From: Leuctra nigra
Lineage: Eukaryota > Arthropoda > Insecta > Plecoptera > Leuctridae
Direction of reading: 5' to 3'
DNA: 64,000 bases
NCBI GenBank assembly: GCA_934045905.1
Contig: OW203763.1
Coordinates: 35,849,017-35,913,016, forward strand
Position numbers and translations under genes: made by a program. The notes below the pieces were generated by a model. The model was given only the letters and a program-made list of their open reading frames with translations, was not told where the DNA came from and did no database searches. Of the stretch, positions 6,901 to 57,660 are shown one piece after another. The number at the start of each line of letters is the position of its first letter. Within the stretch, counting starts at the first letter, position 1.

Positions 6901-9900
6901 TCACTCTTGATACACTCAGTCAGTCAGTTACAGTCACTCTTGATACACTCAGTCAGTCAGTCACAGTCACTCTTGATACACTCATAGTCAGTCAGATTCA
7001 CTCTTGATACACTCAGTCAGTCAGTTACAGTCACTCTTGATATACTCAGTCAGTCAGTTACAGTCACTCTTGATACACTCAGTCAGTCCCAGTCTCTTGA
7101 TTCCATTGCTTGATTCAGATTCACTCAGTCACTTGCAAGATCTACAGTGGTCGTCCCCTTTCTCAGGGCCAAGTTGCTGATACACCACCCTCTTGACGAC
7201 TACCCTTTTAAACCTTCCCCAGACAGAGACCAGTTGTTGATACACCACCCTCTTGACGACTACCCTTTTAAACCTTCCCCAGACAGAGACCAGTTGCTGA
7301 TACACCACCCTCTTGACGACTACCCTTTTAAACCTTCCCCAGACAGAGACCAGTTGTTGATACACCACCCTCTTGACGACTACCCTTTTAAACCTTCCCC
7401 AGACAGAGACCAGTTGCTGATACACCACCCTCTTGACGACTACCCTGTTCAACATCCCCAGACAGAGGCAAGTTGCTGATACACCACCCTCTTGATGACT
7501 ACCCTGTTCAATATCCCCCAGACAGAGCCAAGTTGCTGATACACCACCCTCTTGACGACTACCCTGTTCAATATCCCCCAGACAGAGTCGTTGCTGATAA
7601 ACCACCCTCTTGACGACTTCCCTTTTCCACATCCCCAGACAGATCCCAGTTGCTGATACACCACCCTCTTGACGAATTCCCTTTTTAACCTTCCCCAGAC
7701 AGAGCCCAGTTGCTGGTACACCAACCTCTTGACGACTACCCTGTTTAACATCCCGAGACAGAGCCAAGTTGCTGATACACCACCCTCTTGATGACTACCC
7801 TGTTCAACATCCCCAGACAGAGCCCAGTTGCTGATACACCACCCTCTTGACGACTACCCTTTTGAACCCCTCCTGAGGCAAGTACGCCCCTCTCAGAGCC
7901 CACACCCTCTTGACGAGCACCCTATAACACCTTCTAACAGCCAACGAAGCATTCGGTGACAGCAACCATCTTCCACACCCTTGCAGATATTCAGCTAGGT
8001 TTAATTTCCACCCTCATGCAGCACAAACTTCTTGTTCCACATGATTTTTGCATGTCACTCTCTTAACGAGATCCTATTTCTCCCTTACCAAATTATACAC
8101 AAAAGACAAACAATTCACTAATGAGTTAATACGCACAGCGAGTCGAATCAATAAGGCGATGTATTCTAATGATGTTGCTCGTGTATTAGTGTGTGTATTT
8201 GTGTTGAAGGGTGCTGATCGGCCAGTACGTGCCTGTCTACGGTGACGTCATCAGCCATGTGAACATCACGAATGTCCGCGTGGAAGATGACGGCATGTAC
8301 GAGTGCATAGCGACCAACAGGGTGGGAGAGATCAGCCATAGAGCCATGATGTTGCTCGTGTATTATTGTGTGTGTATTTGTGTTGAAGGGTGCTGATCGG
8401 CCAGTACGTGCCTGTCTACGGTGACGTCATCAGCCATGTGAACATCACGAATGTCCGAGTGGAAGATGGCGGCATGTACGAGTGCATAGCGACCAACAGG
8501 GTGGGAGAGATCAGTCATAGAGCTGTGCTCAACGTATACGGTAGGTGCCTACACAGAAGATCATTTCTATTGATAAGTCATGTTCTAGTAAAATGCCGGT
8601 AGTATCGCACAGTTCAAAGCGGTTTTTCAATTTGACTTCACCCTATCAGAAATTTAAAAAATTAGATATTAGCAATTATTTGGCATTATTGAGTAATTTA
8701 AGCGTTAAAGGGTTGTTAATATCTGTTTTCTTAAAATTTTGTTAGTGTGAAGAAAAATTTCAAATAAACGCTTTTTAGAACCATGCAGTGCGTTTCCCAT
8801 TCGCTTACAGGCCTTTTGGTGAACTAAAAGTATTGTAATCTTACAATGAAATCGCTTTTTGTGTAATGCGTTGATGAGCGAGCACCAAATGTGCAACACC
8901 TTGAACCGAATTTACGTTGCATACAGGAAACATAAAAACAATCAATTTATAGTTAATGCGTTATTGTAGCAACTTTCATGCAGCATGTTAAAGGCTGCTA
9001 ACAGCAATCTAAAAACTTCGGATAAAAATAAAACTGCACCTAATTTAAGATTTTAGATTTTAGACACCAAAACATACCTACTTAAAATCTCAATAACTCT
9101 AGTACAGTCAAAACATATAAACAAAACACAACAGAGAAAACGCTTCAGAGTATCATCGCTCTCAACGCAAGCTTAATAATTCAACAGACTAATTTATTAT
9201 TCTTAAAATGAATTTAATAATAATTTTCAATTTTTAAATGAAAATACTGGTGAAAATACATACATTTACTTATATTAATAATACATTAATAATAAATAAT
9301 CTGTCCATTCTAGCATGTCATTTTGGTTTTACAATAATTGTCTTAGTTCTTACTATATCTAAGAAGTAAAATACAATGTAAAAACGCGTGAAAAAGCATC
9401 AAATTCAATGAAGTTACCCACACTATTTTTTTCAGAGCTGTGTGCCCCAGACCCGCTTTTCCTGGGGTCCCTCCCCCCCCCCCCCCCCCCCCCCCACCCC
9501 CGGCAATGCAATGGCCGAGTGATAAGTGCATTATCAACATCTGCATGTACTCGCACATAACAGATTTTTTGAATTTTCATCATCAAGTCACCGATCGACG
9601 AACTAAACTAAAAACTCATTATAAAAACCGTAATATCCAAATACACTCATTCATAAGAAATTTGCATAAGAAATAATTTCCCACACCTTTAAGATAGTAA
9701 TTAAAACTAACCAAAACATAATAATTGTATTGTACTTAGTAGATAAGTACGTATAGTCAACCTGATCGCTTCCGAGTTTGGTTTGAATTGGAGTGGATCG
9801 AGCGGGAATGCAGTATCTTATGGGAAAACATTATCCATTCATGTAATTGATTCCAGGCCCTCCACATGTTCGGTCCATGGGGGAGGTATCTGCCGTCGCT

Positions 9901-12900: not shown

Positions 12901-15900
12901 TTTTGACAGTTATCTATTATCTTTATCTAGATAAAAATAAAATTATCTAGTCACAACACTGATTGTGGGCTTTGGAAAAATCTTTGAAATCCACCATATA
13001 ATAATAATATAATAATATATTATATATAATAACGATTTAATAATAGTACATCGAACAACGCTTATTTTTCACTTAAATCTGAGCTGTCGTCAAACGTGCC
13101 AACTAATGACTGCCAACAAAGCAAATACAGTTTTAAGCTAAAACAAAGTTCATGCAAACCATTAATAGTATAAATTGTTGGCTACTTAGTTACATTAATC
13201 ACATTTCTTAATTAAAAACTGAGATCTTATTGAGCGATGTAACTCCGGCTTGCGAAATGACTTGAACGAGTCCAGGTACAACCACGGGCATACAAATTGA
13301 CAGTGAACGGCGAAGTTGACACTCAAATTACCGTCAATATTTGTTGAATGGAGAAATAATTATTATGTATGATGTGGTTGGTTATTATAATCACACCCTC
13401 CAACCCCACATGCTCGCCATCTGCTTTTACCTCAGTGTTGTCTTGGATAATCAGTTTCGAGAAAGGACCTTGAATTTCGCACGTCTTTATGCATCCGCGG
13501 GTGTACCTGAGAGTATTGCTGAAGCTTCATATTGTTATTCCGCGGGTGTACCTGAGAGTATTGCTGAAGCTTCATATTGATATTCCGTGGGTGTACCTGA
13601 GAGCATTGCTGAAGCTTCATATTGTTATTCCGCGGGTGTACCTGAGAGTATTGCTGAAGCTTCATATTGTTATTCCGCGGGTGTACCTGAGAGTATTGCT
13701 GAAGCTTCATATTGTTATTCCGCGGGTGTACCTGAGAGTATTGCTGAAGCTTCATATTGTTATTCCGTGGGTGTACCTGAGAGCATTGCTGAAGCTTCAT
13801 ATTGTTATTCCGCGGGTGTACCTGAGAGTATTGCTGAAGCTTCATATTGTTATTCCGCGGGTGTACCTGAGAGTATTGCTGAAGCTTCATATTGTTATTC
13901 CGCGGGTGTACCTGAGAGTATTGCTGAAGCTTCATATTGTTATTCCGCGGGTGTACCTGAGAGTATTGCTGAAGCTTCATATTGTTATTCCGCGGGTGTA
14001 CCTGAGAGTATTGCTGAAGCTTCATGTTATTATTCCGTGGGTGTACCTGAGAGTATTGCTGAAGCTTCATATTATTATTCCGTGGGTGTACCTGAGAGCA
14101 TTGCTGAAGCTTCATATTGTTATTCCGCGGGTGTACCTGAGAGTATTGCTGAAGCTTCATATTGTTATTCCGCGGGTGTACCTGAGAGTATTGCTGAAGC
14201 TTCATATTGTTATTCCGCGGGTGTACCTGAGAGTATTGCTGAAGCTTCATATTGTTATTCCGCGTGTGTACCTGAGAGTATTGCTGAAGCTTCATATTAT
14301 TATTCCGCGGGTGTACCTGAGAGTATTGCTGAAGCTTCATATTGTTATTCCGCGTGTGTACCTGAGAGTATTGCTGAAGCTTCATATTGTTATTCCGCGG
14401 GTGTACCTGAGAGTATTGCTGAAGCTTCATATTATTATTCCGTGGGTGTACCTGAGAGTATTGCTGAAGCTTCATATTGTTATTACGCGGGTGTACCTGA
14501 GAGTATTGCTGAAGCTTCATATTGATATTCCGTGGGTGTACCTGAGAGCATTGCTGAAGCTTCATATTGTTATTCCGCGGGTGTACCTGAGAGTATTGCT
14601 GAAGCTTCATATTGTTATTCCGCGTGTGTACCTGAGAGTATTGCTGAAGCTTCATATTGTTATTCCGCGGGTGTACCTGAGAGTATTGCTGAAGCTTCAT
14701 ATTGTTATTCCGCGTGTGTACCTGAGAGTATTGCTGAAGCTTCATATTGTTATTCCGCGGGTGTACCTGAGAGCATTGCTGAAGCTTCATATTGTTATTC
14801 CGCGGGTGTACCTGAGAGTATTGCTGAAGCTTCATATTGTTATTCCGCGGGTGTACCTGAGAGCATTGCTGAAGCTTCATATTGTTATTCCGCGTGTGTA
14901 CCTGAGAGTATTGCTGAAGCTTCATATTGTTATTCCGCGGGTGTACCTGAGAGCATTGCTGAAGCTTCATATTGTTATTCCGCGTGTGTACCTGAGAGTA
15001 TTGCTGAAGCTTCATATTGTTATTCCGCGGGTGTACCTGAGAGTATTGTTGAAGCTTCATATTGTTATTCCGCGGGTGTACCTGAGAGTATTGTTGAAGC
15101 TTCATATTGTTATTCCGCGGGTGTACCTGAGAGTATTGTTGAAGCTTCATATTGTTATTCCGCGGGTGTACCTGAGAGTATTGTTGAAGCTTCATATTGT
15201 TATTCCGCGGGTGTACCTGAGAGTATTGTTGAAGCTTCATATTGTTATTCCGCGTGTGTACCTGAGAGTATTGTTGAAGCTTCATATTGTTATTCCGCGG
15301 GTGTACCTGAGAGTATTGCTGAAGCTTCATATTGTTATTCCGCGTGTGTACCTGAGAGTATTGCTGAAGCTTCATATTGTTATTCCGCGTGTGTACCTGA
15401 GAGTATTGCTGAAGCTTCATATTGTTATTCCGCGGGTGTACCTGAGAGTATTGCTGAAGCTTCATATTGTTATCCAGGTGATCGACTACTGCCAATAAAC
15501 CGGCGCCACATCGTGTTCCCCAACGGCTCCATGACTATCGAGAAAGTACAGTCAGCAGAGGACGGAGGTTCCTACACATGTGTGGCTTCCAATACTCTGG
15601 GTGTGACTGCCAGTGGATCGGCCAAGATCACAGTCATGGGTATGTATTGGACAATAGTCAATAGTTCAGAACCGGTCAGAAACGTTTAGTGTGTTATCAG
15701 TCTCTCGACGGCGCGGGTTGTGGAGGCATGTGTTGTAAATGTCACACCGTGCTTTGGATGGGACAAGCCGCCCCTTGGTATCTTTGAACATACATGCCGG
15801 TACCGTACCGGTTGACTTATATACACCATCACTGTGTGAGTTTGGATCCTTTGGGAACTCTATTCTAAGTCAGAGTTAGAAAAAGAAAAGTACACTGAAA

Positions 15901-18900: not shown

Positions 18901-21900
18901 AAATTGTTTACGAGGGGGGGGGGGGGGGGTGTCATAATAATTTTCCAGGACTTATCTAGAAAATCAGCCATGGAAAATTTCCTTATTTTAATTGTTTTCT
19001 TTCTCAGGACGAACGAATAAAGCTATCGATAATCGCTATTGAAATGAAAGTTGCGAAACAATCTGAAATAATCCGTGCTTTGTACTCAAATCCGCAAGTG
19101 TTCGTTGACACCTTCTCGAAGTCCTTCCCTTCCTCTCAGCGCTCGCATGCACTTACTCGTCTTCTTGTGTAGCTTTTGTAGCCCGGGAATGCCAGCTGTT
19201 CATGATTTCACATCACCGCCATGGATGACTTGCGGTTGATCATAAATCTTCACTAACTCTTCAAGTACTTCAGGTAAATTATGCTTTTCAGCATGGAAAC
19301 TGTTCGATGTCATTTTTACAGCTTTTGTAGATTTATGTGTGACTAATGTTGTGGATAATGATTGTTTGATTTAAATTGCAGCAGACAACAATTAATAAAA
19401 CATAATAATCTCTTTGTATTGCGTTGTTAAAAAACTTGAAGATACAAGACAAGCAACCAATTAAGCTTCCTATCTGTTTCCTTTGCACATCGAACACACA
19501 ATTCATGAACAATATCAAAACCATGATACATGAAGTATTTTTTTCTGCTTGAGTTAAAAACATATTTAAAAAAGCATTTCCTTGTTTTTTTTGTCGTGTG
19601 AAAGTGCTTTGCGTACAAGACTGCTATGATCTAGTTTCCATACACCTGCTTTGCGATATTGATTTTGATACAAGCAACTTACTAAATCATTGTCAGGAGT
19701 AACACTTCTTTTGCTTTCGAATCACGATCAATGTTCAATTCTGCTCCAGCTATAGCATGTCACTCCATCATAAGAAACCCATGACAACATAATGCTTACA
19801 CCTTTATTCGCAAATATAACACGATATCAAAGATACATCAACTGATTTCAAATAATAGCTCTAAAACGAAACTTTAAATAATCGAATTTAAGAAACCATT
19901 TGGGAAAATGTCTAATCATTCGGACTAATAATTCTTGATGCAATTCATCACTAATAAGAGAGGCCGTCCAGATGAAGATCAAATCTGATATTGTTTGGCA
20001 TTTCTATAGCGTTAAAAGACTTTTGGGCACAATAAAGCTATTATTCATAATGAATCATGCCTGCATGCAGATTATACTTTTTTGATTTTGTGTAAACTGT
20101 TTCTGCCACGAGATTTTTTTGCTATAAATTATAGTTTTTGTATCTATATCTGGACGGAGTTTCACATAAAGAACTTTTAACAAAATTAATGTCGATCTAC
20201 AAAATCCTATAACAAATTACTACAATATTTCACTCTTCTCGAAAATGAAATATTCGATCTTCATTTTGAAATCGTCGTGGCAATCAAATCAACCATTTGG
20301 TCTGTATCAGCTAACGTCCACGAAACAATGACTGAACTTCACGGATTTCATCTCTGCTACAATTAGTGTTTCGTTTTGTAATTTTAGTTCCACCGACGTG
20401 GTTAGTTGAGCCCCAAAACGCTGCCGCAAGACTTGGCCATCAAGCGGTGCTGGATTGCAAGGTGGAAGGATTCCCTCAACCGAGTATTGCTTGGAAAAAA
20501 GCATCAGGTACTCAATTGTAGATGTATAAATAGGAAAATAAAAAAATGAGTCGCTCTCTTGACTTCAATGTAGAATTATTAACGTTACTTTATGGTATAA
20601 GTTACCTTGAATTTATGAAAATGTGAAATTATAGGAAGTTTATTCGCAAATTTTCCGAGATAATTAAAGTTTAGTTATTGCAATTTGAATGCAATTTGAA
20701 CTCCATATTCAGTAGCATGTATGTGGAAGTCGTGGTTGAAGGTAACGGTATTAACAAATTTGATTGACTACTGGCCATGTTCCCTAACAATGAAAGCTTG
20801 TTATTATCATTGAAATGAGAGGTCACCTACTAGAGTGAGACAAGGAGATCGCTCTGACCGACATCTGATGGTGCGATCTAATATTTTTCAGTCAGTCAGA
20901 TTTATTGAGCGATTATTTTTAGTTGTGCCAGTCACCTCTATATGTCCTGATAAAAGCCAGCGATAAAACCAGTCTTGCAAATTACCCCTCTGTATACAAA
21001 TATCTTTATATTAGGCAACTTATACTATACGTCCGTGTACGACTGGTATTCGCGATAGGGGGTAAGTTTTATCAGGACATATAAAGGTGACTATACTGCT
21101 TCTTTTAAACCAAAGTTGATTGAAAGTCGAAGCGCTTGCTAATTCTTGTGTGACGTGCAGGTCATGATCCTGGACAGTATCAGGACTTGGTCGGACGCAT
21201 CAAGCAACAGCAGGCTGGCAGTAGTGTAGAGCTCCTGAGCAACGGATCACTCAGGATAGAGGCTGTGACTCAGGAGGACGAGGGGAGTTATCTCTGTGAG
21301 GCTGAGTGCTTGCTAATTCTTGTGTGACGTGCAGGTCATGATCCTGGACAGTATCAGGACTTGGTCGGACGCATCAAGCAACAGCAGGCTGGCAGTAGTG
21401 TTGAGCTCCTGAGCAACGGATCACTCAGGATAGAGGCTATGACTCAGGAGGACGAGGGGAGTTATCTCTGTGAGGCTGAGTGCTTGCTAATTCTTGTGTG
21501 ATGTGCAGGTTATGATCCTGGACAGTATCAGGACTTGGTCGGACGCATCAAGCAACAGCAGGCTGGCAGTAGTGTTGAGCTCCTGAGCAACGGATCACTC
21601 AGGATAGAGGCTGTGACTCAGGAGGACGAGGGGAGTTATCTCTGTGAGGCTGAGTGCTTGCTAATTCTTGTGTGATGTGCAGGTTATGATCCTGGACAGT
21701 ATCAGGACTTGGTCGGACGCATCAAGCAACAGCAGGCTGGCAGTAGTGTAGAGCTCCTGAGCAACGGATCACTCAGGATAGAGGCTGTGACTCAGGAGGA
21801 CGAGGCTCTGCGAGGCTGAGTGCTTGCTAATTCTTGTGTGACGTGCAGGTCACGATCCTGGACAGTATCAGGACTTGGTCGGACGCATCAAGCAACAGCA

Positions 21901-24900
21901 GGCTGGCAGTAGTGTAGAGCTCCTGAGCAACGGATCACTCAGGATAGAGGCTGTGACTCAGGAGGACGAGGCTCTGCGAGGCTGAGTGCTTGCTAATTCT
22001 TGTGTGACGTGCAGGTCACGATCCTGGACAGTATCAGGACTTGGTCGGACGCATCAAGCAACAGCAGGCTGGCAGTAGTGTAGAGCTCCTGAGCAACGGA
22101 TCACTCAGGATAGAGGCTGTGACTCAGGAGGACGAGGGGAGTTATCTCTGCGAGGCGAACAACGGGATCGGCGTCGGACTAAGTGCCGTGGTTCATCTCA
22201 ATGTGCATGGTAAGCAGTCATCTCTCTTGTTCTCAAATCATAGACGCTTTGATGTATAAAACCTTGGAAAAATCAACTTTTCCGTTTTGGACTACATGGT
22301 TTCGAAACTTTTACATTTGAGGGTTAAAACCAGGAATTATTGATTATTTTTTCAACGTTTTCTATTTGCTTACAATATTACTTCGTACCTTAGAAGCAGA
22401 ATGCCCGTAGTCTATTGTAATAACTGTTCTTGTGGAGAGCTAAAAACAGTAATTCTGCTTTCATCCAGTATTATTTTTAATAGCAAAACCAGTCAATGTG
22501 TAAGAGAATACTTAAATAGCTGTATTTGTTGGCATCAGTCTATTTGCAATTAATAGAAATGGCTTACATAATTTCAAAAGTATGCAAAGCAAAATCGAGA
22601 AAATGTACTACCGGCCTTCTGCTTCTGAGGTATAGAGCTGGTTTGAAAATATTATTTTATGATAGCTAAAAATGTAAGGTATTGAACTTTTAAAAACTTT
22701 GTTATGTTTATAAAAAAAAAAAAAACAGTTGGATATTGAACTTTTAACATTTTTATCACGTTTTGAAGAATAACCCCCATGATTTGAAAACATGAATTAA
22801 TGGTGTGATTTGTGTTGCAGCGCCCGTGTTCTTCAAAGTCCACAACAAGAAGGAGTACGTACGCCGCGGCAGCACTGCAATGCTGAAGTGTCAAGCCATG
22901 GGGAATCTGCCGATAGATCTCTACTGGCGTCGGGACGGCAACTTCGTGCAGCTGCAGGGCAGAGCCAGGCGAGTAGCTTTGTGATGCATCCCAAGTAGAA
23001 TCATTGTGATTATTCCTCCAGACACTTGTCGGGTGGCCTTGAACTTGAAGTGAAATTCCTCTTACACGTTATCATGTAATACGTTATTCACGTCAGTATC
23101 ACGGATTAACATCACGTTATTAATCCTATGTGGTTGGAGTTAGAGATGTTATTAAAAACTTCCTAAATATGCCACCAAACAAAGTCAAAGTGATATTGTT
23201 ATCTAATTTTTTTTTTTTATTGTAAACGTATTTGCAATGAAAAATAAACCAAAAATATTCGATATACGTATTTGAATAGTACAATTGGTGGCATAAATAG
23301 GATTAATTAAATGTCAGAATTCCCAAAATATGGGGGAAATAATATTTTATCCCTTAAAATGTGTTGTTTACACAATAATCAATTACAAATTAAAGAGACA
23401 TTCCTTAGCATGGAAAATATTATGGAGATTAAATAAAATCGTCTTCCATAATTAATAATTATACTAAGCGAGGGAGGGTAAGAAGAAAATGACAACCAAG
23501 TGACATGTTCTGCGAATCAAATGTGTATCAAATGTGTTGGTAGGTACACTGGCGGCATTAAGTTGTTTGTATTCTGCCTCTCTCTGCTCCATATAAAAAC
23601 ATGTTTATGATATGGGTCAGAGAGAGGCAGAGTGCAACGATCATATTGCCGCCACTGTACACATTATTCTGCAAGCTTTTAAGCAATACTATAGTCTATT
23701 ACAAGATAGTCATACCGGTTTTCAATACCAATTGAATTTCAAAATACTTTTATAGCTTTTATAGTAAACATTTCTTGATAACTCACTTCTAGAATTTTTC
23801 CTCCAACAAAAATCACCTCTCAGTTTTGGAACTAAGCACTCATCTCCATTAGTTGCCTTTCCCTCATAGTTCAATAAATAGTTCCCTGGGTTACTTGTAA
23901 ATATACGTATTTGTTGTGTTGACATTTAGAATGCAGTAAAAATTTCTTTCATTTTCCTTTGGGTAACCAGCATTATTATTAAAAAGGTCAACAACGTTTA
24001 AGCAAAGAAATACGTTGCTTGCATGATTTCATGTATTGAATGATTAGACAGTGAATGATGGAATGAGCACTAAATACCATTCGAATTGCAACCAAATGAA
24101 CCCTACGCTACTCTTCGGTGTGCTGGCATTGCTGTTGCAATAAAAGGACCGTGCACATCTCTTCATGTTTTCTTTCAATTCTCTATTCTTTCCATATATT
24201 CGTATATTGATATTTTGTATGAGCATACACTCAGAAATTTTAGTCGCCATTATCTATCTCTTCGTCCGATGTAAAAAAAAACATTCGAAATCCACATTGA
24301 AAAAATAAATCTTTGTAATCTTTTTTGGCAGTTGGATTATTCATCAGCCGGAATTGTCAGATTTTATGATTTGGGGAATGACATATGCATATGCATATAG
24401 GGGAATTCATATGCATTAACATTTCTACACAGATCAACTCGATTTAATATTCCATATGTGCAAAACATTACAATAGTCTACATTACTATTAACGTCCTAA
24501 CATTAATGATACCTACTTATTTTTTATAACATAATTCGACCAAGATAATAATTATGATCAAGAATAATATTATAAACTATTGAAGAATATATAATATTTG
24601 GTGTCTTAGACATAGTTATAGCTTCAGAATTGCTAAACGAAAGAAAGCAACAAAGCCACAAAATTGTATTGACGTTGCTAAGTTGAACAAGTAAATAAAA
24701 GGCAATTTATTCATGCAATCACAATAGCTATATAATTCTACTCATATGTCTACATTATTTTAATATGTGAAAAAGAATTGTACATTATATTTCATTATAT
24801 ATTATAATATATTAAATTATATTTAAAATATATATATAAAATATAGAATTTTAAATCGCACTTCTCTAGTGTTTGTCACTTCTAAAGATACCAGATATAA

Positions 24901-27468: not shown

Positions 27469-27563
<95 letters not shown>

Positions 27564-30500: not shown

Positions 30501-33500
30501 GGGAGTGATGAATTGTACTTCAGCGGGGAGGGGCCTGATCCCTAATGGACTGTTGATCACTCCTTGACTTCTTAATGTGTTATTGTTTCTGTCTCCTCGC
30601 CCTCGGCCGTTTTCGGCCCAATTCGTGTGTCTTCGGGAATGACCATCTCTTCTATCTTGATCTCTGTTATACACATGTCTTTCGCTATGCTGATCACGGT
30701 TCGGTATACCTAGATTACGATCGGCATTTAACGTATTTCCACGCATACGTTCGGTACTATTCGGCTGTCTTCGGGTGCGGTCATAGTTGCTCGCGAATCC
30801 TCGGTTATTATCGGCATTCTCCGTGAATCTTCGTCCATATCCGTTATTGTTCTCATGTCCTCGACTTGGTTCGGTACTGTTCGTATTTATATTCAAATCC
30901 GATCTCTCACTTCGTCTTTCTCGCCAAAATACTTTCGTCAAAAGAACTCCCAACAACACACCGCTTGCTAGAAATAACAAAGAATATAATGTGACGTCAC
31001 ATGGTACACTACAGCGGCCATCTTGTTCTTCGACGCCATCTTGATCGTCGACAGCGAATGTCACCTGCTCTTGAAAACAATAACGATGTTGGTAAGACGC
31101 ACGCATTGCTGACACTGACAGTAAGCAAGTTCGATAGTTGGGGTTGTTTTTGTTGATGTTGTGTTTGTATTGACATTGTTTATTATCGGCTTTGGGTCTC
31201 GCAATCTAGCAGTTGTTTTGTTGTTAAATGGCCAGGAAAGTAAAAGATGGGTTTCATGTCTGAATTCAGTTAAGGAAAATGTGTACATATATGTAAGCAT
31301 AAGTAAGTAATGAGAAATATGTTGAAATGAGTAGAGTAGTACGTACAACACAAAAAGATAATATCCGATAGCTTAGAGCTATTATCAGTATCTATCATAA
31401 TAATTAATGAGTCGGTTGTACTCAAAGGTAAACATTGGAGAAAATATTTCCTAAATATCGTCATAACATATTTTGTATCATTCAAATCATGAAAAATTTG
31501 AGAAGTAATTAGGATAGCTATTTATTTAGTCGTGTCAAAGATGAATAAATATAGTGACATTTCAGCTTTGACACAAGTATTGGCAGAGATAATGTATTTA
31601 AAAGTAAGTGTGTAAGTTAATGTCTAAACACGACTCAAAGAAAGCTTTGTTAATTGTTTGTCACAGTATACGTTTCACAATTTTAATGGTTCAAACCAAA
31701 TATTTGTTCAAACGCTATAAAATATCTCCAATGTTTACTTTCGGCAGCGATCATACTTTCAGGTACAGCCGAATTCTTACATGTTTTGCTATCCCCAGGG
31801 CCGTATTATCCATAAGGCAATGTAGGCAGACTGCCTAGGGCCTACGAAGCTTTTGGGGCCTACAAAAGGCCCATTTTAATAAAAGCTCACTTCCATTAAA
31901 AAGTATTTTTCAATTATTTAATTAATTTCAATTCAAATATTTTAAAGAGTGTCTTAAAATTGTGTAAAAATCAGCCCCCCCCCCCCCCCCCAATTGTTTT
32001 CTTCAGCAAACCCTTTTCCTCTGAAGATCATTGATCGTATCAACCAACACGTATTATTCTACAAATTAACCACGGGAAAAGTAAAACATTTCGGACAGGG
32101 GCCTACGAAAAAAAGTAGAGCCTATGAACTACGAAGGTCCTAAGACGACGGCTGGGTAGTGAGTTTGACCTTGAAGAGTTTTTAATCGATTTTTATCAAT
32201 ATATTTTACCAATGTAATTGTTAACAAAATAAGGCTTTGTACGAGTATTCAGAACAGTTCAATGAAAATAATTCCAAAGCTTTTAATGGTTTATTAGATT
32301 TACTATGTCCTGCAGACGTTTAGTGCCCGAAAATTAATAAAATTATGGCACTAAACATCTGTTGGACAAAATACAACTAATAACTTATTCCAAACTATGA
32401 AATTATTTTCATTGAACTGTTCTGAATACTCGTTCAAAGCCCTATTTTGTTAACAATTACATTGGTAAAAGATATTGATAAAAATCGATGAAAAAACTCT
32501 TCAAGGCCACGCTCACTACTCCTGGCTATCCCCACCTCTGCAATGACGTATTTAACGGTTGTCATGTTTGTCTACAGTGTGAAGAACACGACGGTGAGCG
32601 AGGGCCTGGTGTCTTATAAGTGTGTTTGCGTGTTTGTTTAGTGTGAAGAACACGACGGTGAGCGAGGGCCTGGTGTCTTATAAGTGTGTTTGCGTGTTTG
32701 TTTAGTGTGAAGAACACGACGGTGAGCGAGGGCCTGGTGTCTTATAAGTGTGTTTGCGTGTTTGTCTACAGTGTGAAGAACACGACGGTGAGCGAGGGCC
32801 TGGTGTCTTATAAGTGTGTTTGCGTGTTTGTCTACAGTGTGAAGAACACGACGGTGAGCGAGGGCCTGGTGTCTTATAAGTGTGTTTGCGTGTTTGTCTA
32901 CAGTGTGAAGAACACGACGGTGAGCGAGGGCCTGGTGTCTTATAAGTGTGTTTGCGTGTTTGTCTACAGTGTGAAGAACACGACGGTGAGCGAGGGCCTG
33001 GTGTCTTATAAGTGTGTTTGCGTGTTTGTCTAGTGTGAAGAACACGACGGTGAGCGAGGGCCTGGTGTCTTATAAGTGTGTTTGCGTGTTTGTCTAGTGT
33101 GAAGAACACGACGGTGAGCGAGGGCCTGGTGTCTTATAAGTGTGTTTGCGTGTTTGTCTAGTGTGAAGAACACGACGGTGAGCGAGGGCCTGGTGTCGGA
33201 GCTCACACTGCGGGGGATTCGAACCGATGACGGTGGGATGTACACCTGCTTCGGTAGGAATGAATACGGACATGATCAGACGACCATGCAGCTACTTGTG
33301 CAAGGTACTGGAATCAGTCATCATATTAATTTTGTTAACAGTTTAATTCTCTCCCAGCGAGAATTCTCTCCTACACTTGGCAAAATCGGTCAAACCCCTC
33401 GTTTATTGGAGAATTCCTTCCATTGGTCAATCTTGGGCCTTCACTTCAGCGATGTCGGGTGGCCGGTCCTGACACATCACACTCTTTTTTTCCTCCTCCT

Positions 33501-36500: not shown

Positions 36501-39500
36501 ATAACAATTGCTACTTGGTGTGATGTTCAACCCTTTGCTAAGGTGGCAACTCAACATGTCAACCTTCTCTTCAGGAAATAGAATTAAGTTATTTTTCAAA
36601 TGTGACTGAATGAATTTTACCTGGATAGTTTGATCCACATCAAGGAATTTTTTGGTGTCCCTTCTTAAAGTCATACCGCTTGTAAAATGGATAGCTAAGG
36701 TCGGTGGGGCATTATTTGACTACTACAATGGAGTTTTGACACCGTCATTGTACAAACACTGTCATTATAACAACACATCTATATCAATAAGTGAAGCATT
36801 ACAAATCGTAATTGTTGTGAGAACAAAACGCGAGTGTACATTTATATCTTATTCGAGCATGAACCCAATTGTAGTTCTAATGACGTACATGTTGTAGCTA
36901 TCTTGTACACGGTGCCAGTGCTCGCCGAGAACGTGGTCTGCATGGAGTACAAGGTGACATGTGTGTTGCAGGCTCATGGCTCGGCAGCATGAGAGGAACT
37001 TGCTGTAGACGCCATACAGACGAGTGCTGTACTGGAAAGCCTCCACCCAGCTATCTTGTACACGGTGCCAGTGCTCGCCGAGAACGTGGTCTGCATGGAG
37101 TACAAGGTGACATGTGTGTTGCAGGCTCATGGCTCGGCAGCATGAGTCAGGAACTTGCTGTAGACGCCACACAGACGAGTGCTGTACTGGAAAGCCTCCA
37201 CCCAGCTATCTTGTACACGGTGCCAGTGCTCGCCGAGAACGTGGTCTGCATGGAGTACAAGGTGGCATGTGTGTTGCAGGCTCATGGCTCGGCAGCATGA
37301 GTCAGGAACTTGCTGTAGACGCCACACAGACGAGTGCTGTACTGGAAAGCCTCCACCCAGCTATCTTGTACACGGTGCCAGTGCTCGCCGAGAACGTGGT
37401 CTGCATGGAGTACAAGGTGGCATGTGTGTTGCAGGCTCATGGCTCGGCAGCATGAGTCAGGAACTTGCTGTAGACGCCACACAGACGAGTGCTGTACTGG
37501 AAAGCCTCCACCCAGCTATCTTGTACACGGTGCCAGTGCTCGCCGAGAACGTGGTCTGCATGGAGTACAAGGTGGCATGTGTGTTGCAGGCTCATGGCTC
37601 GGCAGCATGAGTCAGGAACTTGCTGCAGACGCCATACAGACGAGTGCTGTACTGGAAAGCCTCCACCCAGCTATCTTGTACACGGTGCCAGTGCTCGCCG
37701 AGAACGTGGTCTGCATGGAGTACAAGGTGACATGTGTGTTGCAGGCTCATGGCTCGGCAGCATGAGTCAGGAACTTGCTGTAGACGCCATACAGACGAGT
37801 GCTGTACTGGAAAGCCTCCACCCAGCTATCTTGTACACGGTGCCAGTGCTCGCCGAGAACGTGGTCTGCATGGAGTACAAGGTGGCATGTGTGTTGCAGG
37901 CTCATGGCTCGGCAGCATGAGAGGAACTTGCTGTAGACGCCACACAGACGAGTGCTGTACTGGAAAGCCTCCACCCAGCTATCTTGTACACGGTGCCAGT
38001 GCTCGCCGAGAACGTGGTCTGCATGGAGTACAAGGTGACATGTGTGTTGCAGGCTCATGGCTCGGCAGCATGAGTCAGGAACTTGCTGTAGACGCCATAC
38101 AGACGAGTGCTGTACTGGAAAGCCTCCACCCAGCTATCTTGTACACGGTGCCAGTGCTCGCCGAGAACGTGGTCTGCATGGAGTTCAAGGTGGCATGTGT
38201 GTTGCAGGCTCATGGCTCGGCAGCATGAGTCAGGAACTTGCTGTAGACGCCACACAGACGAGTGCTGTACTGGAAAGCCTCCACCCAGCTATCTTGTACA
38301 CGGTGCCAGTGCTCGCCGAGAACGTGGTCTGCATGGAGTTCAAGGTGGCATGTGTGTTGCAGGCTCATGGCTCGGCAGCATGAGTCAGGAACTTGCTGTA
38401 GACGCCACACAGACGAGTGCTGTACTGGAAAGCCTCCACCCAGCTATCTTGTACACGGTGCCAGTGCTCGCCGAGAACGTGGTCTGCATGGAGTACAAGG
38501 TGGCATGTGTGTTGCAGGCTCATGGCTCGGCAGCATGAGTCAGGAACTTGCTGTAGACGCCACACAGACGAGTGCTGTACTGGAAAGCCTCCACCCAGCT
38601 ATCTTGTACACGGTGCCAGTGCTCGCCGAGAACGTGGTCTGCATGGAGTACAAGGTGGCATGTGTGTTGCAGGCTCATGGCTCGGCAGCATGAGTCAGGA
38701 ACTTGCTGTAGACGCCACACAGACGAGTGCTGTACTGGAAAGCCTCCACCCAGCTATCTTGTACACGGTGCAAGTGCTCGCCGAGAACGTGGTCGGGACG
38801 GGACTGTCGAGCAGGGAGCTGAAAGTACAGACTGAAGAAGAAGCGCCGTCAGCGCCTCCGCATCATGTTACTGTGGAGGCGATTAGCTCCACTCAACTCG
38901 CCTTGGCTTTTCAACCGCCGTCAGAGGATCAGTGGAATGGTCCGCTCTTAGGGCATTACGTCGGACGCAGGGAGTTGGGGTAATTGTTCGATACAATTAT
39001 AAGATTATTATTATTATTATTTATTAATTGAGGTTATAGCTCTTTGGTCATTTCCCACACTCCAGATGCCACCCCCTCCCTTCTATCTAAACAGTCATGA
39101 TCTTCCAACCCTCTTGCATCCATGACCATTTGGACATGACTGACCTGACATGGCGCTTCCACTTCTCTCTGTAGCTCGTCCTCCTACCTGGAGGGGTCTA
39201 CTAGTCCATCCTTTTCAGTCATCTCACCTCCCCCATCAGCTGCATTCGTCTTATTGCAATCCGTTTCGTTAATTTTATGATATCAGTTATACCAAGTCAA
39301 GATGTTATGACCATCTCTCATAGCCAATAGTGAAACAAATTATAAGACCCTTTCTGCTATTAGTTTGAAGTTAAAGATGAACGTGTCCATCTTATAATGC
39401 AAGGTACATATACAAAATTAAGAACGTTATTATTTATTTGTACTGTATGTAAATTAAATCATCTTCCTTACTGACTGCTAAAAAAACGTATTGAATTAAA

Positions 39501-42500: not shown

Positions 42501-45500
42501 CTGGAGTGCGGAAAACGGCCGGTTAAGTCTGTAGACAACCCGTTATTTTATTTATTACGCTGGCAATGTTACTAATCCCATAACGCTGTCATAGGATAGG
42601 ACTTTATCTTGGCGTTAGGGATGTAGTCCTCGGTATTTTCTTCTAAGCCAAGCTCTATGTCTAAAAGGCTATTGACCTATTGCTTTCACTTATTTCGGCA
42701 TAGCAATGGCTCGCAAGATAGAGGGTTGAAACATTGCATAATGAATGTCTTCTTTCTCTGATCCTTGCAGTCACCGAATCTATCGAGAGCCAGACAAAGA
42801 TTACGATCGCATTGACGACTGTGCTGCATGGCCTCTTGAAGTTCACCAACTACAGCATCGAGCTACTGGCCTTCACCCGAGTAGGAGACGGCATCAAGTC
42901 GGCCAAAGCCTTCTGCAGGACGAAAGAAGACGGTCAGTAGCTCATAGTAGTCGATTCAACTTTATTGATGGATGTCCAAATTCGTGGCTGACCATTCAGA
43001 CCCAGCGTATCTATAATATGTATGAGACATGAAATTAACAAGATTATTAATTACTAAGTATTATGATTTTAATTTTAAACAATATAACTAGGTAATAAAT
43101 ACTTTGACACATACTAATAATAACATTACCTAGTTATATTACTAGATCTTACTAAACTAGGTAATCAAATGATAGCCAACACTCAATGAAAAGCTTTAAT
43201 AAATCAATCATTCTTATACAGAGTTATTATACAGATGGTTTTGGAGGATACTGATGGAATGCTTGAGGACTGATGGTACTATGGAGTCAGTGATATGAAG
43301 AAACACTTTAGAAAGTCCGTGAAGAAAGTTGAAATAGCGCCTCTTGCGCCAATCAACAGTCCAACAACTTCCCCATTTTCTCCCTTAATCTTGTATCGTC
43401 TGGCAAAATCTTCCACACACGGCTGGTAGGTATATCGTCTGTGCACTTGTGTTATTAGGACATATAACCTGTATTGCTCCAGGAATTATCATACTAATTT
43501 GAACCTTGAGTTGCAAAAGTTTCGTACACTGATTTCTGGAGACTGAGAAGAATCATACCTACAATCAAAAAGGCTGACATTTTGAATTTCGCGTATGTTG
43601 TTCTGCTGAAGCAAAACGAATTTGTAAGAGTTTGCAGGAATTACTGAACATTTACATACTCGTTTTAATGAATCGTTCTCAATGTGTGTAGTACCCGGGC
43701 CACCTGGAGGCATCAAGGCACTCCTCAAGAACACCGACACCGCCATCGTGTCCTGGCTGGCGCCGACCAACGCCAACGGCGTCATCCTCAAGTATGGCGT
43801 CTACGTGCGCATCGCCGAGGGTGGCCGACAGATTGACCTGCGCTCGATCCCGCATCAGTCGACGTCGCAACTCCACTACGAGCTGCCCGGGTTGAAGAGG
43901 AGGCTGCGCTACGAGTTCTCCGTCACGGCGTTCACCAAGATGGGGGAAGGACAGAGTTCACCGGTCACTGCGTTGACGCCGGGCTCTAAGGGTAAGCGAG
44001 AGCATTCGGAAGAGTTCATTGAATTCCTTACAGGTCTTTCTAGATCAAATTTTTTAACAAATTGTGTATTTCTTAAGCAATTGGTGATTGGTCATGCCAT
44101 ATTCTCAATGATGATTGTTGCAGATCACAACCTTTCTAATATGTTATTCTGTATGTATGTATTTTTTTTTTGTCTGGGGCTTAATGTCACACTTTTCTGC
44201 AGCGAGGCTAATGGCGACGGATGAATGATTATGATGATGATTGGGAGATGATGGTGAAGAGTAGGTAAGGATGGAAGGTGGGAAGGAGGCGGTCGTGGCC
44301 TATTAGTAGGGTACCTTCCCAACATTTGCCTGTCGACTGAGGGAAAACCACGAAAAAACCCCAGTCAGGAAGGACGGCCGCGGGAATCGAACCCAGGCCT
44401 CCGGAATACAAGTTCAGAGCGTTATCCACTCAGCCAACCTGTTCTGTTGTTCAATAAAACATACATGTATGTATGTATGTTTTATTGATCCGCTTTGTGG
44501 TACAATGCACGGTGGCAGAACATATAATATGATAATATTATCTCACATAATAACATGATATAACAATAATTATAATAGATGCATCTCGACATTAAAAATC
44601 TAGTAGGTATGTAGAAAAATGTTATGAATGAGATGAGTGATGTGTGATGAGTACAAACAATAATAGTATGGATGCAAGCTGCACCTTCTCAAGAAAATCA
44701 ATCTTAGTTGAGTTATGACATTAATTATTAATCATGATAGTACCTTACTCGAGATTAGATATCTAGTATGTAGAATAGTGATTAATGAGATGTGATGATG
44801 GTGTGATGCGTACATAGTATTATAGATGCATGCATCTTCTCAAGTAAATAGGTGAAGAGGTAGTAATATTAGGATGAAGGTGCCATGTTTCATTAGTGAG
44901 TACAGAGGTGAAAGATGACAGCAGGACAGTAATGGAGGTAGAAGGTTGAGGAAGACACGATTTAGGGAGACACGTCGATTAACTTGTTGAAGTCCACGAT
45001 GGTCAACACATCCTCCAAGTCCTTTGGAAGTTGATTCCACAATCCCACTGATCTGCCGAGGAGGGAGTATCTGCCCATGTCTGTCTTGTGCCTCGGGAGA
45101 TGGAGTTTCTTGTTGTAGACTTGACTAGCTGGTGAAGATCCTGCCATCCAGGCTGTCCGGAGACGGTCTTGAAGAGGTATCGAAGGCTGCATTTCTTGCG
45201 GCGGGATGCCAGCGATTCCCAGTGAAGGTCGTCAACGAGTCTTGAGACGCTGACGTGCGGTTGCTGTGTCGCCTTGTTCCATCTCCGATGGCAGTTCCAG
45301 ACGTACCTTGCCGCTTTTCTTTGGACCTTTTCGATGGAGTGTATTGCTGCCTTAGTGTGCGGGTCCCAGACACCAGAGCAGTATTCCAGCAGCGGTCTAA
45401 TTAGGCACTTGTATGCGTAGTCTCTTGTCTTGGGGAGGCTGCCTTTGATGTTACGCATAACAAAGTGAAGCATCTTTCTTGCTTTGGCTGTTAATTTGTT

Positions 45501-48500
45501 AATGTGAGGCGTCCAGTTCATGTCCGAAGACAGAGTAATTCCGAGGTATTTGCAGGATGAAGACTTTTCCACGTTTTGACCATTGATGTTATAACTAGTT
45601 GGTATTTGGCTCCGCTTTCTAGTAACTGACTACTGAAGATAAAATTAATTCAATATGTAAAATCTACTGATTGCTTAATCAGTGGATTTGAAAAGTGTGT
45701 CTTGGTGTACAAGAAAAAAAGCAAAATTTTCACGAATACAATAATTTAGTCCTGGTAATGGCAAACGTAACACCTCATATTTATTGGTGATTGTAGCTTA
45801 TTGTGCATATTGCATGATTTCATGAACTCATCCACTATAGAGCTATTTCTCACAAAAGTTACATTCAAGATATGTCTTGTGACTACTGCATCAAACTACA
45901 GGTATTATTGTATCAAACATCCCAGGATTAGAGCTCTTTTACATTTGCGTTCAAAAGATCACCTCTTAATATGTATCCCTCGTCCTGAGAATTGTTCTTC
46001 GCTTCCAGTGAACGCCGGCATCGTCTCATTCGGCGGTCTCCGCGTGGCCGTCTGGAAGAGCGACGTGCGCCTCCCTTGTCGCGCCGTCGGCCAGCCGGAG
46101 CCCGACCGCCACTGGCTGTGGGGCGGCGACCCAATCACTCACGGACCCCGCCTGGGCCAAGCCGCGGACGGCGCTCTTCTACTCTCGTCAGTACAGCGCA
46201 GCGATGAGGGACAGTACTCGTGTGTCGTCAAGAACGAACATGGAACCGATTCCATCATCTACAACCTCATGGTGCAAGTACCTCCGGGACAGCTGCTGTT
46301 ACTCGTCACCGGATTCACAAGGGACAGTATGAATCTACAGTGGAAGCTCGGTGACGATGGTGGAAGTCCGGTAGAGGGATTTGTTGTCAATTACAAACTG
46401 GAGCATGGTGAATGGGAAGAAGTGCCTGTGGAAGGACTGAGGTCCACGTTTGTCTTGGGTAACCTCCGGTGTGGTACCACTTACTTGGTGTTCGCGACCG
46501 CTTTCAACCGAGTGGGCAGCGGACCTCCCAGCGAGACATTGACTGTGAAGACCAGGGGCTCGATACCGCTGCTACCAGAACTCGATGATCTACTCGTCAT
46601 CAAATCTAGTGGCTTCGGACTGCAGCTAAACATTTGGCCCGATGGAGGATGTCCGATATTGTACTTCGTAGTGGAGTATGCTGGCCACAATTCTGAAGAC
46701 TGGGTTGTCGGTAAGTATATTTCACCAGAGGTGATTAATATGCGTAAACAGCTGCCTCTTATACTTCATAAGTGAACATCATTGGGAATTGTACAGCCAC
46801 TGCTAACCTTGTTAACTCATTATTTAGCAGATCGACACTATTCATAGTTGTAAATGGGACGAAATCGACTCCTATTGTGGTTACATCCGGTGTACCTCAA
46901 AGTTCGGAGCATGGGTCGAGTTCTTTTCGTCTTATTTGTCAATGATATTCCTGACATAATTTCAAACTGTATATAAAATATAGATATTACAGTATTTTTC
47001 TCTGCCAGCGTATTTGGCCACGCTTTACAAAATCGGTCAAAACCCCTCGTTTTGAGCATCCCTTCCATTATGATGCTAGATAGATTGGGAGATTGGGATT
47101 GCTAGATTGGGATGCGAGATACCTGCATTTTCCGTGACCGACTTTCCCCACTCCACCTTTCCACATTTTGGGAAGTACAAAACTGTGCAATAATACGCTT
47201 GCAGTGAAAACTAATATACATAAAATAAAATTAAATGGTAAATATGCACCCAAGAATGATATTGTACAATTTCACTGGCAAAGTAGTTCTTATTTATCAG
47301 TAACTATACTGTGTGATTGCTATTCCAGTGAACAACAACGTGGGCTCAGAGAAGGTGTTGGACATCATCGGACTGGATCCTGGCACCACGTACATGCTGC
47401 GAGTCACGCACGGCTCACAACGCCGCCGTGATACGGTGTGATTGCTATTCCAGTGAACAACAACGTGGGCTCGGAGAAGGTGTTGGACATCATCGGACTG
47501 GATCCTGGCACCACGTACATGCTGTGTATCACTGCTCACAACGCCGCCGTAATACGGTGTGATTGCTATTCCAGTGAACAACAACGTGGGCTCGGAGAAG
47601 GTGTTGGACATCATCGGACTGGATCCTGGCACCACGTACATGCTGCGAGTCACGGCTCACAACGCCGCCGTGATACGGTGTGATTGCTATTCCAGTGAAC
47701 AACAACGTGGGCTCGGAGAAGGTGTTGGACATCATCGGACTGGATCCTGGCACCTTGTACATGCTGCGAGTCACGGCTCACAACGCCGCCGTGATACGGT
47801 GTGATTGCTATTCCAGTGAACAACAACGTGGGCTCGGAGAAGGTGTTGGACATCATCGGACTGGATCCTGGCACCACGTACATGCTGCGAGTCACGCACG
47901 GCTCACAACGCCGCCGTGATACGGTGTGATTGCTATTCCAGTGAACAACAACGTGGGCTCGGAGAAGGTGTTGGACATCATCGGACTGGATCCTGGCACC
48001 ACGTACATGCTGTGTATCACTGCTCACAACGCCGCCGTGATACGGTGTGATTGCTATTCCAGTGAACAACAAAGTGGGCTCGGAGAAGGTGTTGGACATC
48101 ATCGGACTGGATCCTGGCACCACGTACATGCTGTGTATCACTGCTCACAACGCCGCCGTGATACGGTGTGATTGCTATTCCAGTGAACAACAACGTGGGC
48201 TCGGAGAAGGTGTTGGACATCATCGGACTGGATCCTGGCACCACGTACATGCTGCGTATCACTGCTCACAACGCCACCGTGATACGGTGTGATTGCTATT
48301 CCAGTGAACAACAACGTGGGCTCGGAGAAGGTGTTGGACATCATCGGACTGGATCCTGGCACCACGTACATGCTGCGTATCACTGCTCACAACGCCGCCG
48401 TGATACGGTGTGATTGCTATTCCAGTGAACAACAACGTGGGCTCGGAGAAGGTGTTGGACATCATCGGACTGGATCCTGGCACCACGTACATGCTGCGAG

Positions 48501-51500
48501 TCACGGCTCACAACGCCGCCGTGATACGGTGTGATTGCTATTCCAGTGAACAACAACGTGGGCTCGGAGAAGGTGTTGGACATCATCGGACTGGATCCTG
48601 GCACCACGTACATGCTGCGAGTCACGGCTCACAACGCCGCCGTGATACGGTGTGATTGCTATTCCAGTGAACAACAACATGGGCTCGGAGAAGGTGTTGG
48701 ACATCATCGGACTGGATCCTGGCACCACGTACATGCTGCGAGTCACGGCTCACAACGCCGCCGTGATACGGTGTGATTGCTATTCCAGTGAACAACAACG
48801 TGGGCTCGGAGAAGGTGTTGGACATCATCGGACTGGATCCTGGCACCACGTACATGCTGCGAGTCACGGCTCACAACGCCGCCGTGATACGGTGTGATTG
48901 CTATTCCAGTGAACAACAACGTGGGCTCGGAGAAGGTGTTGGACATCATCGGACTGGATCCTGGCACCACGTACATGCTGCGAGTCACGGCTCACAACGC
49001 CGCCGTGATACGGTGTGATTGCTATTCCAGTGAACAACAACGTGGGCTCGGAGAAGGTGTTGGACATCATCGGACTGGATCCTGGCACCACGTACATGCT
49101 GTGTATCACTGCTCACAACGCCGCCGTGATACGGTGTGATTGCTATTCCAGTGAACAACAACGTGGGCTCGGAGAAGGTGTTGGACATCATCGGACTGGA
49201 TCCTGGCACCACGTACATGCTGCGAGTCACGGCTCACAACGCCGCCGTGATACGGTGTGATTGCTATTCCAGTGAACAACAACGTGGGCTCGGAGAAGGT
49301 GTTGGACATCATCGGACTGGATCCTGGCACCACATACATGCTGCGTATCACTGCTCACAACGCCGCCGTGATACGGTGTGATTGCTATTCCAGTGAACAA
49401 CAACGTTGGCTCGGAGAAGGTGTTGGACATCATCGGACTGGATCCTGGCACCACGTACATGCTTCGTGTCACTGCTCACAACGCCGCTGGCTTCGTGGTC
49501 GCCAAGTATCGCGCCTCCACCCTGGACGTCCACGGCGCCACCGTCAGTCCCAGCGAGGTCGTCACGGTGGTCGACGAACAGACGCCGCTGTTCAAGGACA
49601 ACAAGATGGTGTTTGTAGCCGTGGCCGGTGTGGCGGTGCTCATAGTGCTCACAACACTCTGTCTCTGCGTCAAGAGAAGTAAGTACCAACTGGTTTAAGC
49701 AGTGATAAAAACATGAATACATTGGGGTGGTTGGGGGTTAGTGTGACGACCTCCCTCCGCCTGCTATCAGTCTCTCGACGGCGCAAGTTGTGGAGGCCTG
49801 TTATGTAGATGTCACACCGTCCTTCGGATGGGGCGTTAAACCGTTGGCCCCTTCGGTCGTCAGGAGTAGGCTACATGCCTGTACCAGGGTGGAACCAGGG
49901 GCTGGATTCACAAAAAGTATTATCTCCTAATACGTACTATCTTTTGTATTATCTTTCATTTAACATGGTGTTTTTGGTATTAAATCAAAAGATAGTACGT
50001 ATTAGGAGATAATACTTTTTGTGAATCTGGCCCCAGGGCTCCAGCCATGGTGATTAGAATTCGATATCATACTAAATTACTTACGAAACCACACTGGAAA
50101 ATATGATTAGTGAAATATGACTTAATGAATTGTGTTGAAAACGTGTTTAGTTGTAACATTATTAGTCAACCTAGTTATGAGTTCAAGAACATTTGGATAG
50201 GAACAATTCTATATCAGATAAGAAGAAGATGGGAGGAAGGGAAGAAGAGATGATATGAGATTACTAAGAGCCTCAATTTGACACTCATGGATTTATCATT
50301 ATCTGTAGAATTTGTAAGGTTAAATTTTCATCTTTATAACTTTGTGAACAAGTCTTTGACATTTAACTAGGCCCAACGGAATCTTAAATTTGTCTGTTTT
50401 GTATTTGTAATTTTCTCTATGTCACTATTTTCTCCTGAAGAAGATCACTGAAGTAGAAATATAGTTTTCTAATAATATAAAGATTTTGAACGGTTCAAAG
50501 TAGTGTATTAATTGTTATCAATTATCCAAACTTACTATCGTAAGAAGAAAAAATTATTTGTCCATACAAAGAACTGTCCCACATATGCCACCAATTGTAA
50601 TTTTTAATGTTGAGTATGTACATTCCACAAATTCTGTCCAGCCGGGTAGCTCAATTGGTAAAGTTCTCACCCAGTCCCTGGTTTGAGTCCCGTTTCAGGC
50701 GTATATTTCTCACGTCTCAACCTTTATATTATTCTGACTCCATAGGAAGTTTTCTTTAAACTCCCCTAACTGAACTTCTACATAATTTCGGGTTTTAAGC
50801 AACAAACACAACACTCCACCATTCCAGCAACATCCATACAAACACAGAACTTTCACACTACAAGAAATATAATTCTGGAGCATTCAAGATTCTTAACTAT
50901 ACATACAGAGATGTTTTCAACTTCCAAGTTGCGAATGGCCATTTGTTGAAAGTGCCAAGTTACAAACTTAATCTGCTTATTTCAACTGTTTTCCACTATA
51001 CAATTTTAACTGTTAATATAGTTCACTCGCGAATTTTTGGTTAGGCGATTCTGAACTTTGTGATTTTGACAATCTTCCGTGTGAATCGACCGTTAACGAT
51101 GTTCCCAATCTCTTATTTCAGAATCTCGTCCGAGTCGTCCGTCGCCAGAACTCAGCATCCAAGAGATGCCCGTGTCGTCCTCGGAAGACATGACCGCGAG
51201 AGAGCAGTTCTACGGGACTGGACGCAAGCTCGCCTCGTCGCCCTCGACCCTCGAGTGCATACCGGAGTACGGTGAGGACATCCGTCCCTATGCCACCTTC
51301 CACTTGCCGGAGGCGACCAAACTTCACACGTTTCATTGTGCGAACCTCGAGGACGAGTCGCCGGCGAGAAAGGTATTGCTTGGAGTTGAGACTTTACGGT
51401 CGGAGTCAACTAATGATAATTCCTGCTTAGCATGGTCAGGGATAGGCCGGCCCATGCTAAGCAGGTATCATCATTAGTTGACTCGGACTCTAGTCCGTTC

Positions 51501-56747: not shown

Positions 56748-57660
56748 TCAAATTTGTATAGGTACAGGTCTTTCTATGGTTATACCCCATGATTTGCGCA
56801 TCTTCACATTGCTCGTACCCTGATCGCAAACTACTACTTTGGGAATAAACCCAGGCGATTTGACTATTTTGAAAACGTCAAGCAAGATTTCTTTCAGGGT
56901 ATCGGCAGAAGCAGCATCTCTTGTGAGAAAATAACCTAAGACTTGTTTGAAGTTTCTTTTAATGCCTCTTATCATAAACACTAGGGCTTCATTTGCAATC
57001 TCCATATTAGGGCTTTAACTATAGTAACTTTTTCCTCCTAGGCTCCTCTTGAGTTTGAAGATTTCGATTTCGATTTCTTACCGGTAGTCGCCCCAGCAAC
57101 TGCTCCTCAATTCCTTGTACCCTTGGAATAGGTCGGAGAGTGCATGGTAAGAAATGTGCTCCTTCATTCAGTGACATTTCATCTAGGACTATGGATACTA
57201 CTCTCTCGGACATTGGCATCGTTTCGCATTTCAATCGCAGCAATTTCAGTACATTTTCGCCGATGCCTAGAGAAAAGTCCAGTCAGGGAACTTACAGTTG
57301 GTAAGCAGAAATGTTTACGCAAGAAACGATATGCCTTCGGAGAACAGTAGTGAAGAGCAAGTGCTAACGATTTGTAATGGTCAGTGTAGATATCGACGAT
57401 CCAAATGCGATAAACTCCGTGTTGACATCAGAAGTTGATACAAAGGCATGCAGTAAATCACTTTCAGTACATGCACTGCTGTTAACTTCTTGTGCACATT
57501 CGAATATTCCTTCATCACATTCTTCGAAGTTTTTAGTTTCTTTATAATTGGAGACAGTTTTCTGAGCATTGTGAAGTTTATGCTTCAATGTTTTAATATG
57601 CAACTCTAGTTGCTGTCGAGAACGTTTGGGAAGATGTGCATCAGGAAAACGTGGATCAGG
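56748..57660 (-). pseudogene. P-element-like transposase remnant
   Basis: Minus-strand frames in collinear order: 57603-57364 (LKHKLHNAQKTVSNYKE), about 57350-57150 (CSPKAYRFLRKHFCLPTVSS), 57243-57019 (MSERVVSIVLDEMSLNEGAH) and 57005-56748 (ALVFMIRGIKRNFKQVLGYF, VVVCDQGTSN). YSPKAYRFLR---LP, DEM and CDQG--N are hallmarks of the P-element/THAP9 transposase family (the D residues belong to its RNase H-like fold). Frames are broken by shifts and stops, so it is dead. No THAP zinc finger or TIRs are seen. Confidence 0.8.

Follow-up and report, generated by a model that had tools for sequence, protein, structure and literature searches.

Tandem arrays across the splice acceptors of five exons in a Dscam2-like gene of the stonefly Leuctra nigra

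What does it mean for a gene to place as many as 17 extra splice acceptors, identical or nearly so, before a single exon when its protein needs only the last? This question is raised by a Dscam2-like nerve-wiring gene of the stonefly Leuctra nigra, most of which lies within a 64,000-nucleotide stretch of contig OW203763.1 (positions 35,849,017 to 35,913,016, forward strand; assembly GCA_934045905.1, 536 Mb in 144 contigs), hereafter the window. In this gene, a unit crossing the acceptor has been tandemly copied at five exons, and the acceptor copy proximal to the intact exon gives a conserved protein. We argue that these arrays are probably neutral splice-boundary minisatellites, or 'mirages', which would originate in GC-rich DNA, most of it exonic, and persist where they cross exon edges.

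Results

Five arrays spanning splice acceptors

The unit of all five arrays consists of an intron end, the acceptor and an exon start, and each array stands ahead of a different exon. Under the domain labels assigned in the present analysis, these exons are Ig5-C, Ig8-C, Ig9-C, FN1-C/FN2-N and FN6-C/TM, all of them second halves of intron-split domains. Counting anchored on the acceptor gave 2, 6, 10, 12 and 18 copies, respectively, and therefore 1, 5, 9, 11 and 17 extra acceptors (43 in total), the same numbers of extra copies as in the initial annotation of this stretch. The arrays and exons are on the + strand, and the intact exons were delimited by an open exon chain together with the alignment of relatives. 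The Ig5-C array (8169..8523; 179 × 2.0 in Tandem Repeats Finder, TRF) has first exon bases at 8210 and 8389, the intact exon spanning 8389..8540. The Ig8-C array (21134..22156; TRF 174 × 6.0, spacings 174/166) carries acceptor copies with first exon bases from 21161 to 22015, ahead of the exon at 22015..22209, and those of the Ig9-C array (32565..33197; TRF 64 × 9.7, spacings 64/66) run from 32578 to 33162, ahead of the exon at 33162..33304. In the FN1-C/FN2-N array (36896..38794; TRF 155 × 12.3, spacings 153/155) they extend from 36972 to 38673, where the intact exon (38673..38979) begins, and in the FN6-C/TM array (47306..49487; TRF 121 × 18.0, spacings 121/125) from 47329 to 49394, the exon being 49394..49678. 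The search patterns for acceptor copies include AG, so that a copy lacking AG would escape detection; since no spacing reaches two unit lengths, no such copy was skipped inside the five arrays.

Measured between the start of the TRF interval and the first acceptor, the intron part of the units is 13-41 bases long (~28-30 within the Ig9-C array); about 36-147 bases of exon follow. These sizes correct the ones first proposed, while the block composition is upheld. The copies had also been described as lacking a donor. This holds for the other arrays, but the FN1-C/FN2-N units contain a donor-like AAG|GTGACA or AAG|GTGGCA (AAG|GTGRCA), agreeing at 7 and 6, respectively, of the 9 positions of the donor consensus; the donor-like site lies ~137 bases after the acceptor of its unit and ~18 bases before the next. 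Some upstream copies of the Ig9-C array end in CTACAG, whereas the acceptor of the real exon reads CTAG. That the arrays directly abut an intact exon is true as geometry and calls for no special cause: any tandem duplication over an acceptor yields upstream copies plus one intact exon, and the arrangement is therefore no clue to its origin.

The productive acceptor

The gene model comprises 19 exons with AG acceptors and GT donors, and joining them through the exon-proximal acceptors gave a chain of 1461 codons with zero stops. Among the best 120 of 2451 relatives of this chain, the named ones are insect Dscam-type proteins (among them Dscam2 of a katydid, termite, leafhopper, dragonfly and mayfly); the top-scoring one is a katydid Dscam2 (52%), and two termite relatives reach 62% over 100% of the query and 65% over 93%. 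For residues 1-518, the best solved structure is that of Drosophila Dscam. As a separate observation on the model, the Ig9-N exon apparently ends in a GC donor at 22968-22970 (CAG|GCGAGT), the sole one in the 19-exon chain.

The junctions made by the proximal acceptors align in 5/5 relatives at four arrays and in 4/5 at FN6, where one termite model lacks that end. Readings from the upstream acceptors ran into a stop in 42 of the 43 cases, so that the early stop initially claimed for every array stands with one exception: the reading from the last FN6 acceptor but one (49273) stays open through the exon end, yet is 121 bases out of frame. The aligned relatives and the stops together mean that productive splicing has to go through the proximal acceptor. 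From the protein that it yields, the proximal acceptor would also be the one mostly used, and dozens of near-identical extra splice sites probably go unused. A coding tandem repeat was ruled out by the same stops. Complete alternative exons were likewise rejected, as the copies are truncated and, with a stop after nearly every upstream acceptor, do not combine acceptor, donor and open frame into a full exon.

Variation among the copies

Within each array of more than two copies, blocks of variants recur from copy to copy, as in minisatellites, and the copies carry private as well as shared variants in patterned blocks. The intact exon itself has 7 private differences at Ig5-C, 1 at Ig8-C, 0 at Ig9-C, 1 at FN1-C and 5 at FN6-C. 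When the acceptor part of the copies was compared with the exon part, it was less variable in Ig8-C and FN6-C and more variable in Ig9-C and FN1-C, in a rough comparison that used fixed-length windows, in which indels inflate some values, and that left out the two-copy Ig5-C array.

Placement of the arrays and GC content

We placed the 13 arrays of the gene at random in 200,000 draws. The expected number of acceptor-straddling arrays was 0.38, and at least five were obtained in 1 of the 200,000 draws (5e-6); for either exon edge, P was 3.7e-4. In a second test (100,000 draws), in which the arrays were cut to one unit, P was 5e-5 for acceptors and 0.0016 for either edge, and with GC matching these values rose to 0.0045 and 0.072. 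Random placement thus fails to explain the five acceptor arrays. The GC content of the 11 measured arrays, out of 13 in the gene, is 0.44-0.59, compared with 0.59 for exons and 0.37 for other intron DNA; the arrays at 10266 and 12838, which fell outside this measurement, have AT-rich units by eye. Because much of the enrichment disappears once GC is matched, the association with exon edges is largely as expected from GC-rich exons if exon-internal duplications are lost. The suggestion that 3' splice sites are prone to duplication is accordingly needed only in part. The preference for acceptors that stays after matching must be read with the caveat that the five window arrays had been selected beforehand as acceptor cases.

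Arrays in other Ig-domain loci of the assembly

The survey covered 27 further loci (270 kb) found through Ig- and fn3-domain matches, L030 having been picked beside an earlier match; L001-L008 (26 kb) were outside the scan. It provided 134 tblastn coding blocks, which are not exons, 128 of them in 26 loci at E 1e-4 and 6 in L035 at E 1e-3. The 26 loci held 30 arrays, of which 14 were read by eye and 16, mostly of short period, were not. The counts for these loci are lower bounds, since the unread arrays may sit at exons missed by tblastn, as does the acceptor array of L034, whose exon lies outside the 134 blocks.

Six further arrays were found at exon edges: four straddling an acceptor (L026, L027, L030 and L034), one straddling a donor (L027) and one abutting a donor (L034). 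Both exon edges and several genes are therefore affected, in 4/27 loci. The L026 acceptor array (1650-5094, reverse strand) has an 80-bp unit and 43.1 copies in TRF, 38 of them matching the exact pattern, and its exon is represented by an I-set match inside an open frame of 1325 codons. The L027 acceptor array (50/55 bp) has 7 acceptor copies, and the donor-straddling array of this locus is separate, with 4 copies; the L030 array has 15 copies at 99-101 bp, with one spacing of 38; and L034 combines an acceptor array of 6 copies (78/101 bp) with the donor-abutting array of 43 bp. L027 and L030 are neighbours and resemble, we presume, another Dscam gene. Upstream acceptors led to a stop in 24/37 cases in L026, 6/6 in L027, 14/14 in L030 and 5/5 in L034.

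The Dscam gene, initially singled out, is thus only one of several Ig-domain genes that carry such arrays, some of which have them at donors too, but it is denser in them: 5 of its 19 acceptors compare with 4 of the 134 coding blocks elsewhere (P = 0.0016, a rough value) and, when L027, L028 and L030 are left aside, with 2 of 117 (P = 0.0006, equally rough). None of the five window arrays had a match in the 27 loci at E 1e-10. As far as these loci go, a single dispersed element is therefore improbable as their source, and the proposal that the same type of event occurred five times in unrelated sequences holds.

Several candidates from the survey were judged to be of another kind. The 129-bp array of L009 and the 90-bp array of L026 are coding, in frame and titin-like by eye; the unit of the 122-bp × 14.4 array of L019 (1886-3653), also titin-like by eye, apparently comprises an entire small exon together with its acceptor and donor. 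No exon edge was seen at the 124-bp array of L023, the 118-bp and 34-bp arrays of L034 or the 86-bp and 48-bp arrays of L027, which were set aside.

Other features of the window

Two arrays overlooked in the initial annotation touch splice sites of the gene without containing exon (both + strand). The 29-bp × 113 array (3830..7101) starts with the G of the donor GT of the Ig5-N exon (3685-3829); in the copies inspected, the G preceding GT is missing. The 45-bp × 44 array (13494..15473; 97% matches) stops 4 bases short of the Ig6-C exon (15478-15639), so that it supplies the sequence immediately upstream of the Ig6-C acceptor; the copies inspected have CCGCGGGTG or CCGTGGGTG in place of the CCAGGTG of the true acceptor. 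Further GC-rich intronic minisatellites lie away from the model exons, at 7172-7868 (60 bp), 25159-25337 (93 bp), 26228-27059 (21 bp) and 29845-30262 (38 bp).

Two Ig7 exons, apparently alternative, were seen side by side at 16668-16958 and 17732-18037; Drosophila Dscam2 has two alternative Ig7 exons. On the minus strand, an open frame at 45003-45629 presumably represents the end of a LINE reverse transcriptase, and another at 56748-57427 is one that we take to resemble a P-element-like transposase.

Discussion

How could such arrays persist in a conserved gene? We propose that the units would arise in GC-rich, largely exonic DNA and that duplications internal to an exon would be purged by selection. 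Those crossing an edge could persist, because the complete exon is retained along with its acceptor and donor, and all that lies upstream can be spliced out as intron. The spliceosome would then select the proximal acceptor by exon definition, the full-length exon and its donor following close behind, and use of an upstream acceptor would mostly yield stop-containing transcripts. Several results weigh against this proposal. The acceptor excess persists after GC matching, and the GC-matched null is itself partly circular, because the straddling units are GC-rich for the reason that they hold exon. Of the straddling arrays, 9 are at acceptors and 1 crosses a donor (P = 0.02, two-sided), an imbalance that an origin symmetric for the two edges would not predict; the tally softens, however, to 10 versus 3 (P = 0.09) when abutting arrays are added and is 4 versus 1 outside the window. 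In L026, 13 of the 37 upstream acceptors are open without a stop. No such array was seen in 23 of the 27 other loci, which leaves a genome-wide process conjectural.

The acceptor excess is what would be expected if acceptors were mutation hot spots, at which the branch point, the pyrimidine tract or transcription-associated structures promote tandem duplication. All five straddling arrays in the window and four of the five elsewhere are at acceptors, and five acceptor arrays remain improbable even with GC matching (P = 0.0045). However, donor-side arrays are known in L027, in L034 and at 3830 (the 29-bp array), the general association with edges is mostly absorbed by GC alone, and a survival bias toward acceptors could equally come from the logic of splicing; we therefore regard a hot spot as unlikely. 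That the arrays are selected decoys, in which competition from upstream acceptors directs a regulated fraction of the transcripts into nonsense-mediated decay, would fit the lack of any AG-less copy in the five arrays, the stop after 42/43 upstream acceptors and the CTACAG of some upstream Ig9-C copies as against the CTAG of the real exon. A decoy function would predict that the acceptor part is best conserved, which the rough comparison of the two parts did not consistently find; the decoys suggested in the initial annotation are thus unsupported, and we consider them distinctly improbable.

Alternative or nascent exons that add protein diversity might be looked for in the FN1-C units, in which an acceptor and a donor-like site enclose ~137 bases, and in the open upstream readings of L026. 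Upstream use mostly gives stops, though, the ~18 bases between the donor-like site and the next acceptor are few, 137 is not divisible by 3, and the extra peptide is present in 0/5 aligned relatives, which makes this explanation very doubtful. Assembly errors are usual in tandem arrays, and one amphioxus globin array is reported to have been aberrantly assembled in the draft (PMC3087553). Yet the private and shared variants form patterned blocks among the copies, and an equivalent structure with differing units recurs at several exons and on further contigs. The number of copies could still be inaccurate, but arrays wrongly collapsed or expanded are hardly a credible explanation of the whole. 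A broader possibility than neutral minisatellites, to which we give little credence, is an ongoing, genome-wide process in this insect lineage by which the edges of exons, and acceptors in particular, would be amplified. Essential genes would then live with dozens of near-identical competing 3' splice sites, and the arrays would be both a natural experiment on acceptor choice and raw material for new exons and introns, FN1-C and L026 already having donor-like sites or open frames.

Whichever way they arose, the arrays offer a natural way to ask whether acceptor choice follows order (the first AG, the first transcribed) or exon definition. Exon-edge minisatellites may simply follow from frequent tandem duplication in GC-rich exons, and new introns could arise by way of them.

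Tandem exon arrays are familiar in Dscam, where they are the basis of mutually exclusive exons. The arrays described here resemble them in that exon sequence stands in tandem copies in a Dscam gene, but differ in that the copies are truncated, donorless save for the donor-like site of FN1-C, and mostly lead to stops. A further comparison is with novel introns of Drosophila, which are reported to have arisen where exon sequence carrying a proto-splice site was duplicated in tandem, with stops in 18/18 cases (PMC2891723). Both are tandem duplications that splicing can render harmless, but here no new intron position was seen, as the relatives align without such a gap, and the unit includes a pre-existing acceptor.

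The closest likeness is to the amphioxus 'mirage' minisatellites, described as tandem duplications across an intron-exon boundary in the globins BflGb6 and BflGb9 (PMC3087553). In BflGb6, the repeated units of 150-160 bp run from the 3' portion of an intron into the 5' portion of exon 2, and the two haplotypes have 6 and 3 units (PMC3087553). Many copies retain splice signals, regular splicing is reportedly undisturbed, and either edge can be involved (PMC3087553, PMC3902484); other examples mentioned are Adh, troponin C and PGBD5 (PMC3902484). Among the literature matches listed, we found no report of such arrays outside amphioxus, which does not prove their absence. The likeness extends to a unit spanning the intron-exon boundary (five arrays), an intact boundary beside the array (the 1461-codon chain and five relatives), variant blocks common to copies, and the involvement of both exon edges and several genes (L026, L027, L030 and L034). 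The differences are the insect host, the five arrays in one gene and the up to 17 extra copies, here known from the DNA of one assembly. The arrays would thus belong to the known amphioxus mirage kind and extend a peculiarity described in amphioxus to an insect; what sets them apart is this host and the unusual concentration in one gene.

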